Shown piece by piece: positions 45,494 to 52,684 of a stretch of 64,000 nt of DNA (its first letter is position 1; every line of letters starts with the position of its first letter). A program made the position numbers and the translations under genes. Origin of the DNA: Acytostelium subglobosum LB1. Taxonomy: Eukaryota > Evosea > Eumycetozoa > Acytosteliales > Acytosteliaceae. The stretch is from positions 1 through 64,000 of the forward strand of contig NW_012236522.1 in the NCBI RefSeq assembly GCF_000787575.1. Direction: 5' to 3'. The notes beneath the pieces were generated by a model. The model had not been told where the DNA came from. It saw nothing but the letters and a program-made list of their open reading frames with translations, and ran no database searches.

Positions 45494-47222
45494 TTAGTTC
45501 GTTGCTGAGAAGAGATACATTGAATTGCTTGTGCCCAATGCTATGAGGTTCTCAGTTGGATGCCATGAGACATGCAATGCTTTCTTTGTGAAGTCCAGTG
45601 ATAGGTCTAATGTGACAGGCAAAGTGTCAGTTTGATTGAATGATTGAATGAATGAATGAAGAATACTACATACCTGCCATTGATCTGGTCCTTGGCCTGT
45701 AGGCATTCCTGGATGCCTCCATGAAGACGTCTTGTTTAGAGTCGCGCTCATAGATGTGGAAGAAGTTGTTATAGGAGCCTGTCAACATCTGCGAGCCGTC
45801 GTGGTTGATGGCACACTCAAACTTGTCAAAGATGCAGTCGTTCTCGTAGAGGTCGCACAGTCTCGGACGAAGATAGTCGTGTATCTGGATGGACTTGAGC
45901 GGACGGCTCTCCATGTTGATGTCCCACAGCTTGAGCGTCAAGTAGTCGCGCGACAAAATGTAGCGGCCGTCTCGGCTGAACTTGATGTCGGAAATGGAGG
46001 AAATGATCTCGGAGAAGAACGACTTGGTTGAGGGGTCGTCGGGCTCCTCGAACACCTTGCTGTGCTGGTCGCACAGCGCCGACGATCGCAGGTCTCCCAG
46101 CTTGATCGTACCCTTGCTTGAACTGTACATAAATATATTACACGATGTCGGGTGGAACTCGGCGCTGGTGATCACCTCGGTCAGGTCCTCCATGTTGGTC
46201 GGCTTGATGTCCACTACGTTGAAGCACTCGTGGTTGTTGTTTAGGTTCCACAAGTGGATGCGGAGGTCGTCCGATGAGATGTACGTCTCTCCGTCCGAGT
46301 TTAGTGATATCGAGTTGATATGATAGGCATGTGCATTGGCATACACCTTCTTTGGAAAGGCTGTTGTTTCTCGCGTGGTCGTCAAGCGAGGTATCTATTC
46401 ATTCATTCGTTTGATTGAGTATGTTTGAGTGAGTGAGTGTCATGTGATTGATTTATTGATTGATTGATCACTTGTCATCCTTACCTTAAATATACTATTG
46501 TTATTATTATCATCGGTCATACTATCTATACTATTACTGTTACTGCTTCCATTATTGTTCTGTATACTTATATGATTGTTGCCACTGCCACTACCATTTG
46601 ACAATGTTGTCGATGACAGTTGCTTCACTTTCTTCTCATATACCTTCCAAAGCTTAATAGTCTTGTCTGTTGATTGTGTAATGTACATCGTCAGTCAATC
46701 AATCATACTCATTCAATCAATGAACATAACATACCATTGGTTGTTAGAAGGAAGTGAGCATCGAGTTGCTTTGGATACCATTTGATCTTGTTGATCTTCT
46801 CCTCGATCTCTAAACTCTTTAGGTAGTCAAACTCTGGCTGATGGCTTTGAAACTCGCAGTAGAACTTGTATTCACATCGGCTTGACTGTTGTTGTTGCTG
46901 TTGTTGTTGTTGCTCCTCATCATCATAGTTGTCATCGCTATCTGATCCATGTACACGCTCAAACAACACCACTCTTCCACTCCTATCACCCGCTGCAATG
47001 TAGTCTCCAGTATGATCAAACTCAATCGCAGACACTATATCACCTGTTTCATTCATTTATTCGTTCGTTCATTCGTTCATTCGTTCGTTCATTCGAGTAA
47101 GTACAATGTGCAGCATGCTCTCATGATGATTGATTGAATAACATACCATCTGATACATCTTCAGCGGGATTCCTATTCCCAAACATCTGACTAAACTTCC
47201 ATTCCAAAGCTCCCTCTGACAT
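45494..47222 (-). CDS. Protein phosphatase 2A regulatory subunit B (B55, WD40)
   Basis: Five exons on the minus strand: 47147-47222, 46735-47043, 46485-46666, 45674-46394 and 45494-45606; in-phase junctions give 466 residues. B55 landmarks are [83 protein letters not shown], and [12 protein letters not shown]...[16 protein letters not shown]. Asn/Ser and Gln insertions in the loops are typical of dictyostelids. The subunit forms a seven-blade propeller that directs PP2A to substrates in mitotic exit and cytoskeletal control. Convergent with the DOCK gene. Confidence 0.95.
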
Positions 47223-47851: not shown

Positions 47852-50800
47852 TTACTTTGCTGAGATTGATACCTTTTGGTACTCATTGATATCCAATGCT
47901 TTCTTTCCATTGCTGTTGATTGAATCCCATATCCAGAGTGGATCGATTACGACTGCTTTGGCATTCTCTTTTTGGAGAAGACGTATGAACTCTTTCTTGG
48001 ACTCGGATGTGATGATGTGTGTGGTGGATGGTGTGATCGTGTCGGTCACATCACCATTGAATGCCACAATGTATCTCTTCAAAGTCTCCATGTCATTGAC
48101 TGTCTGTGGATGCATGTATAATACACACTCTGAGAACATGTTGGACAAGTTCACCTTGGTTGTTGTGGCCTTCTTTCCAGTGGCACTGTTGGTGCCATCA
48201 GTATCATCACCATCATCATGCATGATATCGCCATGGTCCTGGCTGTAGTCTGGATTGGTGCTGTCGTGGAAGAGATACTCGGCCTCGTCCATGATGTGGT
48301 CCTCTTGGAAGCAGTCCTCGATCCAGTCCGACTTGACAATGAGGCCGCCCAGACGATCGACGTGTGTCGACAGATCGCATGGCGCATCGCATATCAAATG
48401 AGTGGTCTGGCCAGCGCCGTACGCCTTCCAGCTCGTGGCCACCTTGCCGCCAAATGATATGATGATGTTCTTCCACTTCTTGACCTGGTCCACTGGCAGG
48501 TTGCTCGCAAACACACAGTTGACATTGGCAAAGATTGGATTGAGTGGGATGGCTTCTTCGCCATTATCATTGCTGTCCTCGAGTGGTCGCTTCGAGCTTG
48601 TCTTGGTGCTGGCACCATCCGATGCCTTGCCAGCTTTGGTCGACGACGATGGCGCTGAGCTACTGACAACGGGTGAGTTGTCGTTTGAATGTACAAACAC
48701 TTTGGTACCCTTCTCGTGCAGCTTGGAGACGTAGAGCTCCTCCAGGTCGGTCCATTTGATGCCTGGGAAGTTGGGTTTGATTGCATGAACCGACTCGATC
48801 TTCTTGTGCTTGCAAATGGATTGGGCCGCGACTAGAGCCTCTGTGAAGTCAGTCAGCGAGAACATGTAGCTCTCGCCCTTCTTTGTTGGCGACATGATGC
48901 ACGACATGTTGCAGACATATATCTTCTTGTCGCCATTGTCCACCTTGGTCGTGCGTATCTCGCCCAATGGCAACACCGACTTGGCAAACTCCTCCTCGAC
49001 AATCTTCCACTTGCCGGCGATTGCGCCTGGTATGCCAGAGTTCCTCCACTTGCCACTGTCGTCCGTATAGTTGATGATCATTGTGCTAGTGCTCTCATCC
49101 TTGTTGAATGGGTCTGTGATGTCGCCCTTGATGTAGTTCACCTTGCCTGTCAACTTGGGACTGTTTGTACTTGATGTAGTTGATGTAGTCGATGTGGTTG
49201 ATGTTGTTGATGTAGTTGATGTTGTGGTCTTTGCCTTCTTTGTTGTTGGACCTGTTGTGGCAGCCTTGGACGATGTCTTGCCCTTGACAGCTGGCTCATC
49301 TTCGTCGTCTGAAGGGATGGCAACGATCTTGGCATCCTTGGCCAGATGCTTGAGCTCCTCAAACTTGGTGTGTGATTCCCAGTCCTTGTCCTTTCTGATC
49401 TTGATGATTCTTGGGAAACGCATGGAGAAACCAGACGTGTGATGTTTGGTGCCGGTCAGCTCAGCCGACTCAATCTCAAACACCATAGCTTGCTTTGGAT
49501 CATTCACGATGAAATCTGGCGCATAGGCCCTGTTGAAGTCGAGCCAAGCAGGCACCTTGGACGCGTCCTTTGATATCTTGGTCATGGTCTTGTTGACGAT
49601 TGGCTGTAGCTTGGCGATGGCCGTGTCGTCCAGACCACCACTGACCTTGCACACGGTCTTGTATGTCTTTGATTCCTCATCATACGTACACATCAGGAAC
49701 ACAGTGACCAATCCACCACTCGTGCCCGTTCCGTAGTATCCTCCCAGCGCCAACAGATCAGCAGTATCGGCCATGCCACTGATGTAGTCCTTCTTGACCT
49801 TGATCCAATGTCTGCAGCCTGGCTCGTAGACGCTGTCAGCATCCTTGATCACCAGACCCTCCAACTTCTCCTGGAATGTCCTGTTGAGCAATGCGGACAG
49901 CACACTCTTGTCCTTCTGGCCAGCAATGTGGGTGACCTCGGACAGCTCGATTCTGTGCTGCACGATGTTGACGTTCTTCTCGAGGATCTCTCGACGCGTC
50001 TTGAGTGGCAGATGCAGCAGCGACTTGCCGTTGAGGTATAGGATGTCAAAGAGGAACACACACACGGTGGCATCGGTGAAGCCCTTCTTCTTGTGGATGC
50101 CAAGAGTACCGAATGGCAATGGCTTGGACGTAGTGGTGTCCATCAGAAGGATCTCACCGTCCAGGATGATGCTGTTGGCGTTGGTCGACTTTGGGATGTA
50201 GGGCAACACTTGCTCCACCTTCCATGACTGTACGGGCTTGAGGGTTACGACTGTAGCACTTGTAGCCTTTGCCGTCCTTGTGCAGCTGGATACGCTCGCC
50301 ATCATACTTGATCTCGGCAAAGAACAGCTCACTGCAGGCCTTGATTACGCCATCAACACTCTTGATTGCCTTGGGCAACATTGGTTTGATTGGCGTCATC
50401 AGCGACACACTAATGTCGAGCGATCCGGTCTTTAGCTTGTCACCTGCCTTGTTGTTCTTCTCAAAGCCCTTGTTCCTGATCGTGTCGATCACTGCCTTTA
50501 GATTGTTGGCCTGACGATAGGCGTCCATGGCCTGTGGATGCAGGCCATCAAAGAAGAACTTTGCGCCCAGGTTTGTCTTGAGGTCAGAGTCGATGATACG
50601 ATGCACTGTGCGCCAATCGTGAGGTGTACAACGCTTGATGAACTTTGATATAACTGCTACTTGATCATCAAACTTGGACACCGTTGTCAGTTTGTCCAAG
50701 AATGCATCCACCTGTCCCAAAGTCAATATTGACTTGGTTGGTACATTGTTCTGTTCTTTATAATACTATGTTGATTGATGTGATGTTTGAAACCTTAAGG

Positions 50801-51235
50801 TTAGTAAACTTGATTGATTGAATGATTGATTGAATAAGTGTAGGATCGTACTTTGTAACCTGTTTGAGTGACATCACCATGGTCAAGATCAGCAATCATA
50901 TCATCAAGGTCTGCTGACCATACCTCTGCGAGGATCTTTATCATTTGCTTGTCTCCAATCCTAAAGACACGCTTATCCTCTTTGACCAAAAGTAGTTTGG
51001 CCAATAGATATAGGTCACCCCTATAGATATTCAGTAATGATCAGTCAGTAATCCACACATGATGGTCAAACAAACGACTAAGCCTTCCAACAACAGGCTC
51101 ATCAGATAACATAACATACTCGAACTGATCTACGAACTTGGCAATCAACTTTGATTTGCCTGAATGTGTAGACTCATGCTCCAAAGCAACACAGAGCTTG
51201 TAAAAGTAGAAGAATGATCCTGTTTTGTCCTCCAT
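47852..51235 (-). CDS. lig3: DNA ligase III with ALC1-like macro domain and tandem BRCT
   Basis: Exons 51120-51235, 50852-51020 and 47852-50765, about 1065 residues. N-terminal ligase domain (FYKLCVALE...GDLYLLAKLLL...HGDVTQTG), then the nucleotidyltransferase with active-site KYDGE (Lys248), then LDGEILLMD, GLVIKDADSVYEPG, RHWIKVKKDY and the OB-fold region. The order and residues match ligase III rather than ligase I or IV. After a Thr/Ser linker comes a macro domain of the CHD1L/ALC1 type (about 48680-49160: VNYIKGDITDPF, DDSGKW, IPGAIAGKW), then two BRCT domains (about 48265-48545 and 47870-48150). No PARP-type zinc finger is present. A G run at 50242-50244 breaks the frame by one base between CYSRN and LKPVQSW; both sides are conserved, so a sequencing error is likely. 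The donor of intron 2 (GTACGA) is non-standard and less certain. Confidence 0.87.
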
Positions 51236-51776: not shown

Positions 51777-52007
51777 TATTATTCATAATTATTAATATTA
51801 ACAAAATAGTAGTATTATTATTTCTAGAGTAATATATCATTATCATTATATTTACTATTAATAATATCAATAAATCAATCAACAAACAATTCAATACTTT
51901 CCAGTCTACTGGTACATGTTAAGTTGAAATTAATTATTATTTATTTTTATTCTATTATAATTCCACCGACAACAAGCTGTCTCTACACCAAGAGAGAAAA
52001 AAGGCAA

Positions 52008-52314
52008 TCAATCCTCTTCTTGCATTTTTGACTCACAATCGTAAGATGGACAACAAGCTGGATACTCCAAAGAGTTATCACGATGAATGACAGCACAACT
52101 TTTATAGAACTTGGGACGATCGTCACAACCAAAAATATTAAATAGTAAAAAATTAAATAGTAAAATGTATGGTGGAAGACAATATTGTTGCAAAATTCAA
52201 TATTTACAAAATAAATACAAACTTGTAACTAATCAATCCAAGATTTATTATTATTATTGACATAATAATTAATAATATTAAAAAAATTGTATTCTTTCTA
52301 TAATTATTGATCAT
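52008..52314 (-). pseudogene. Decayed small secreted Cys-rich protein gene (copy B)
   Basis: Starts MINNYRKNTIFLILLIIMSIIIINLGLIS, a signal peptide like that of the intact copy at 52436-52684. The frame then meets a stop, and the family C-terminus (GCDD...FYKSCAVI...DNSLEYPACCPSYDC) reappears further on and runs to the stop at 52008. I found no intron that would join the two parts. A decayed or rearranged paralogue is the simplest reading; an undetected intron is possible. Confidence 0.55.
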
Positions 52315-52435: not shown

Positions 52436-52684
52436 TTATAAACTAACATAGGCGCATTCGTAGGAAGGACAACATTCTGGATATTCCAAACTGTTATCTC
52501 CAGGAATGACCTCACAACCTTTATAGAAATCGGGATCAGCACAACCTTCGAGATCATGGCCGCCATCCCATAATGATACCTTTGAACACTCTTCAAAACT
52601 TGAACTAACTAATCCAAGATTTATTATTGATATACTAATTATTAAAATTAATAAGAGAATATTATAATTTCTAAAAGATAACAT
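52436..52684 (-). CDS. Small secreted Cys-rich protein, 82 aa
   Basis: Intact frame with a strong signal peptide (MLSFRNYNILLLILIISISIINLGLVSS) and a mature part with seven cysteines, including CEVIPGDNSLEYPECCPSYEC. Two damaged paralogues lie downstream on the same strand (51.5 and 52.3 kb), so this is the surviving member of a small tandem family. The CCPxYxC ending resembles single-VWC-like small secreted proteins, but the match is only a resemblance. The function is unknown. Flanking DNA is extremely A/T-rich. Confidence 0.7.
   Translation of the reverse strand: MLSFRNYNILLLILIISISIINLGLVSSSFEECSKVSLWDGGHDLEGCADPDFYKGCEVIPGDNSLEYPECCPSYECAYVSL

Follow-up and report, generated by a model that had tools for sequence, protein, structure and literature searches.

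An ALC1-class macrodomain in a dictyostelid DNA ligase III as a probable ADP-ribose reader

Vertebrate DNA ligase III is brought to DNA breaks by separate parts, i.e. PARP1, XRCC1 and a zinc finger. In D. discoideum, a DNA ligase III orthologue was found among unannotated macrodomain proteins, and vertebrate ligase III was described as being without a macrodomain (Gunn et al. 2016, PMC5087659, in the available text); a 2021 review repeats the macrodomain of D. discoideum ligase III under the identifier DDB_G0283857 (PMC8529158, available text). No test of the function of this macrodomain was found in the available text of PMC5087659, PMC8529158 and PMC5622368. Given the earlier report of Gunn et al. 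on the D. discoideum enzyme, a ligase III-macrodomain fusion is no novelty; it is known in kind, and the gene from Acytostelium subglobosum described here is another member.

Here, we analysed a stretch of 64,000 nucleotides of the A. subglobosum LB1 genome (hereafter, the window). It encodes a dictyostelid DNA ligase III whose ALC1-class macrodomain is probably an ADP-ribose reader that recruits the ligase to PARP-marked breaks.

Gene model and ligase core

The DNA ligase III-macrodomain-tandem BRCT gene is real and reads on the minus strand from an ATG at 51235 to a stop codon at 47852-47854 (Table 1). The preliminary description of this DNA had placed a ligase III core, a macro domain and two BRCT domains, in this order, at 47852-51235, and both the order and the coordinates were confirmed on the minus strand. 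With splice sites picked for phase consistency and for a preserved LIG3 alignment, the gene would consist of three exons (51235-51120, 51020-50860 and 50755-47852) separated by two introns. In this model, the active-site lysine, previously numbered Lys248, is Lys242.

Table 1. Features of the ligase gene, with positions in the window
Feature	Position	Strand	Evidence or remarks
Ligase III-macrodomain-tandem BRCT gene	47852..51235	-	263 aa upstream and 796 aa downstream of a one-base frame break
Exon 1 (predicted): start codon and beginning of LIG3-type DNA-binding domain	51120..51235	-	Phase-consistent splice sites; 3l2p alignment from chain residue 11
Intron 1 (predicted), GTATGT...TATAG, 99 nt, G+C 0.37	51021..51119	-	Phase-consistent splice sites
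Exon 2 (predicted): DNA-binding domain	50860..51020	-	PF04675 E 3e-6
Intron 2 (predicted), GTTACA...AAAG, 104 nt, G+C 0.29	50756..50859	-	Phase-consistent splice sites
Start of exon 3: remaining DNA-binding domain and beginning of adenylation domain	50244..50755	-	PF04675 E 5e-12; PF01068 E 4e-11
KYDGE active-site motif, Lys242 in the three-exon model	50295..50309	-	Translation
One-base frame break in CCC run	50242..50246	-	Frame offset; LIG3 alignment on either side
Remaining adenylation domain	49793..50182	-	PF01068 E 6e-34
Ligase C-terminal (OB-fold) domain	49385..49717	-	PF04679 E 9e-11
Linker between ligase and macrodomain, acidic and Thr/Ser-rich	49157..49312	-	Sequence composition
Assigned ALC1-class macrodomain, 158 aa	48683..49156	-	BT1257 match, profile, predicted fold
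BRCT 1, generic type	48308..48541	-	PF00533 E 4e-8; weak XRCC1 BRCT hint E 0.04
BRCT 2, LIG3 type	47912..48148	-	PF16759 60.8 bits; solved LIG3 BRCT chains E 1.6e-4 to 7e-4

Among solved structures, human LIG3 matched best both before and after the frame break. The 263 residues before the break matched residues 11-274 of the human LIG3 chain 3l2p with 173 bits (best LIG4 chain, 42), and the 796-aa frame matched residues 276-575 of the same chain with 302 bits (LIG1, 123; LIG4, 115). With LIG3 scoring well above LIG1 and LIG4, the ligase III identity given earlier stands: judged by these alignments, the core is of the ligase III type and begins directly at the DNA-binding domain, and it is presumably orthologous to D. 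discoideum ligase III. Further ligase matches in the same genome are located on contigs C42 and C38, and the ligase core had no match in viral contigs using strict search patterns.

The KYDGE adenylation motif is present, but its frame is shifted by one base relative to the remaining gene: the segments KYDGE...CYSRN and LKPVQSWKV... lie in frames one base apart at the CCC run 50244-50242. From LKPVQS, the frame is open through to the stop codon, and the C-terminal half of the ligase core, the macrodomain and the two BRCT domains share this one 796-codon frame. Thus, the earlier statement that all parts are in the same frame holds for the macrodomain and the BRCT domains relative to the C-terminal half of the core, but not for KYDGE as assembled. 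No stop codon separates the ligase and macro regions in the 796-codon frame, the BRCT part included, which in part answers the earlier refuting condition of two genes with a stop in between, and the third-codon-position G+C of the ligase part (0.73) is similar to that of the macro part (0.75).

Because the sequences flanking the break match adjoining stretches of human LIG3 (3l2p 11-274 and 276-575), an intron at this position was ruled out and the break is read as a one-base indel. Moreover, since the flanking parts are intact and the third positions are biased (G+C 0.63 before and 0.73 after the break), the indel is probably an assembly error. If the break were genuine, the ligase gene would be a dying pseudogene in this strain; the location of the break inside the adenylation domain would fit this, but the 263 codons upstream and the 796 codons downstream of the break are free of stops, their third positions are biased and the domains are intact, making a pseudogene highly improbable. 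The break is a warning about the reading frame of the ligase gene in this assembly.

The ligase gene is adjoined by a WD40 gene (45666-47056, minus strand; Pfam match WD40), which presumably resembles the PP2A B55 regulatory subunit; on reading the sequence, a second frame break, in this gene, is accounted for by an ordinary intron. A small, secreted-looking cysteine-rich protein is encoded at 52439-52684 on the minus strand (SVWC, 27.2 bits with a cut-off of 27), and a similar stretch, FYKSCAVIHRDNSLEYPACCPSYDC, lies just downstream of it at about 51990-52160 on the same strand, so that the two are apparent tandem duplicates. Among 298 candidate Dicty_CTDC repeats in the genome, 150 were scored, and there were 0 in 14 prokaryote controls, in keeping with a dictyostelid origin.

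Identity of the macrodomain

The Pfam Macro profile (PF01661), by which the macro domain was to be checked, did not match 48683-49156 (hmmscan, E up to 1), nor did it find the ligase macrodomain when searched against the organism's own genome (E up to 0.01); by contrast, BT1257 and a profile of bacterial relatives did match. In a phmmer search of solved structures, two chains of BT1257 were the top matches (E 9.2e-5 and 1.2e-4; best stretch, 3.3e-4), followed by weak matches to three CHD1L/ALC1 chains (E 0.13-0.2); SCO6735 and TARG1 were absent from the six matches at E up to 10.

Searching genome contigs with an alignment of BT1257 and the macrodomain segment yielded 21 bacterial relatives, which were confirmed through their likeness to BT1257 and not to the ligase segment, and which share 22-30% identity with the latter. 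A profile of these 21 relatives alone scored the 158-aa segment at 35.4 bits, compared to 8.4 bits for the best of 2,000 shuffles. Within the whole 796-aa frame, the same profile gave 31.1 bits, while no other six-frame piece of the window scored above 6.1. With the Acytostelium sequence included, the profile ranked BT1257, SCO6735, ALC1, Poa1p and then TARG1. Pfam Macro matched 17 of the 22 rows of the alignment (21 bacterial and Acytostelium) at E up to 1; the Acytostelium row was among those unmatched.

AlphaFold2 run on the 22-row alignment returned a model with a pLDDT of 79.9 and a pTM of 0.79, in which the phosphate-loop blocks had a pLDDT of about 81-83 and residues 91-120 were the weakest (57-67); from the single macrodomain sequence, the pLDDT was 43 and the fold unusable. 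Foldseek with the model placed 2afc, 5e3b, 2fg1 and two ALC1 chains on top, designed serine hydrolases at ranks 6-10 and TARG1 at rank 11. Because the bacterial rows were fed to AlphaFold2, the likeness of the model to BT1257 is not independent evidence.

In total, based on the BT1257 match, the profile of 21 relatives and the predicted macro fold (a model made with bacterial rows), we conclude that 48683-49156 is to be classed as an ALC1-class macrodomain that is too diverged for standard annotation, in agreement with the ALC1-like domain named in the preliminary description. No relatives of this macrodomain were found in viral contigs, PHROGs, phages, plasmids or NCBIfam. Pfam Macro gave six exon-level matches at four loci other than the ligase in the organism's own genome, and a second copy of the ligase macrodomain was not detected there. 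Current annotation of amoebae may miss ALC1-class macrodomains.

Reader or eraser

In the phmmer alignment, Asp12 of the ligase macrodomain aligns with ALC1 Asp723, which the available text of PMC5087659 describes as critical to ADP-ribose binding, and the DDSGxW stretch is retained. The phosphate loop PRIGCGLAGG is replaced by IKPNFPGI, which is two residues shorter and retains one of the four glycines; with a loop this eroded, the domain may bind ADP-ribose weakly or not at all. The eroded loop and the failure of Pfam Macro are what would be expected if the macrodomain no longer bound ADP-ribose and had a structural or protein-protein role between the core and the BRCT domains. However, the predicted fold (pLDDT 79.9), the equivalent of ALC1 Asp723 and DDSGxW are all kept. 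Moreover, D. discoideum ligase III is also reported to have a macrodomain (in the text available), which argues that the domain is probably maintained. We therefore consider a purely structural module rather unlikely.

Among the nearest relatives is SCO6735, a hydrolase whose substrates are ADP-ribosylated DNA and proteins (PMC9411070, available text), and the "mobile loop" region of the ligase macrodomain is equal in length to that of BT1257, with no alignment gap. Both observations would suit an active ADP-ribosyl hydrolase that, like SCO6735, cleans ADP-ribose off proteins or DNA ends before ligation. According to the available text of PMC9411070, the activity of SCO6735 is lost for Gln85 and Asn27 and reduced for G128E, and TARG1 Lys84 and DarG Lys80 occupy the position equivalent to Gln85. 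In a manual match of SCO6735 residue numbers to the printed alignment, Asn27, Gln85 and Gly128 correspond to Asp32, Ile87 and Asn129 in the ligase macrodomain. Thus, the position of Gln85 and of the TARG1 and DarG lysines is an Ile, and none of the catalytic residues described for SCO6735, TARG1 and DarG in the available text is present in the alignment.

ALC1 has an Asp at the place of SCO6735 Asn27 and a Gln at that of Gln85. In the available text of PMC7050489, TARG1 is the only active animal member of the ALC1 class and ALC1 is not counted as an active hydrolase. Because inactive ALC1 keeps the Gln, the pocket of the ligase macrodomain differs from that of ALC1 too, and the Gln85 position alone is not diagnostic. 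In total, since two residues required in SCO6735 are replaced and the ALC1 binding Asp is kept, a reader is favoured over an eraser: activity as a hydrolase appears unlikely from the residues present, and we regard the cleaning of ADP-ribose-marked ends or proteins as quite improbable, whereas it is possible that the macrodomain is an ADP-ribose reader with predicted binding. That a macrodomain of the BT1257/SCO6735 branch has been turned from an eraser into a reader of ADP-ribosylated DNA ends is highly improbable; if true, the ligase would recognise a mark on the DNA terminus itself and not on PARP or histones.

Repair partners and recruitment

The zinc finger of vertebrate ligase III is chiefly a sensor of DNA nicks and gaps. 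The zf-PARP profile (E up to 0.1) matched three places in the Acytostelium genome, none of them on the ligase contig C46; two of these, on C53 and C47, each lie some 2 kb away from a PARP catalytic match, and the third is on C38. This bears out the earlier reading that there is no PARP-type zinc finger, with respect to contig C46, and a finger encoded upstream of the ligase was rejected for the same lack of a match on this contig. As far as this search goes, a PARP-type zinc finger exists in the organism and is not found in ligase III. The suggestion that the macro domain acts instead of the zinc finger was too strong: because the vertebrate finger chiefly senses nicks and gaps, the macrodomain need not replace it.

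The match on C38 belongs to a likely DNA-repair gene (L039:1587-4085; PARP-type zinc finger E 4e-24) with a neighbouring frame that has a uracil-DNA glycosylase match (E 1e-4) and FHA matches, all weak and below cut-off, as well as a PBZ zinc finger (E 3e-11). We infer that the two frames are one gene, which may encode a further repair enzyme that carries its own PAR readers.

Both BRCT domains named previously were recovered, BRCT 1 by PF00533 (E 4e-8) and BRCT 2 by PF16759, its 60.8 bits being the best of seven matches in the organism's own genome. An XRCC1 N-terminal domain, split into two pieces (C55:701836-702316), is also encoded in the genome, accompanied by a weak BRCT-like match, below cut-off and with an internal stop, at C55:699680-699787. 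As the ligase ends in a LIG3-type BRCT and the genome has an XRCC1 N-terminal domain, recruitment through XRCC1 may well have been retained. The PARP catalytic domain has 16 exon-level matches in the genome.

From the domains and their order, we infer the following scheme for the reading that we favour, i.e. a macrodomain that binds ADP-ribose as a reader. PARP-type enzymes would mark the break with ADP-ribose, the macrodomain would tether the ligase to this mark, the BRCT domains, the last of which is of the LIG3 type, would bind XRCC1 or further partners, and sealing of the nick would fall to the LIG3-type core. The macrodomain (permuted) of another Dictyostelium protein, APL, binds PAR (PMC5087659, available text). 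Counting against recruitment, disruption of lig3 in D. discoideum revealed no significant role in the PARP-inhibitor tolerance of HR/NHEJ-deficient cells (PMC5622368, available text). Altogether, recruitment by the PARP signal via the ligase macrodomain is a reasonable proposal on sequence grounds, and the link between PARP signalling and ligation could be tested within a single protein, in an organism amenable to genetics.

Comparison with known systems

The genome of D. discoideum is far more A+T-rich than that of Acytostelium, which is G+C-richer (0.29-0.58 per 2 kb in the window). Among the closest described systems is D. discoideum DDB_G0283857, likewise a ligase III orthologue with a macrodomain, compared here by its published description only, in the text available. 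For a second dictyostelid, the present analysis adds the macrodomain class, the replaced catalytic residues, the tandem BRCT domains and the missing zinc finger.

With human DNA ligase III, the Acytostelium enzyme shares the DNA-binding, adenylation and OB domains and the C-terminal LIG3 BRCT; it differs in that the zinc finger was not found and in the extra macrodomain and second BRCT. Dictyostelids seem to have an ADP-ribose-reader-like module inside the ligase itself. The ligase macrodomain shares the ALC1-class fold, the Asp723 equivalent and DDSGxW with ALC1/CHD1L; however, ALC1/CHD1L is an SNF2 remodeller and not a ligase, its phosphate loop differs, and its Gln is an Ile here. BT1257 and SCO6735, both presumably single-domain bacterial proteins by the lengths of their PDB entries, are closest in predicted fold, and BT1257 is closest in sequence; SCO6735 is an active hydrolase, whereas its key residues are replaced in the Acytostelium macrodomain.
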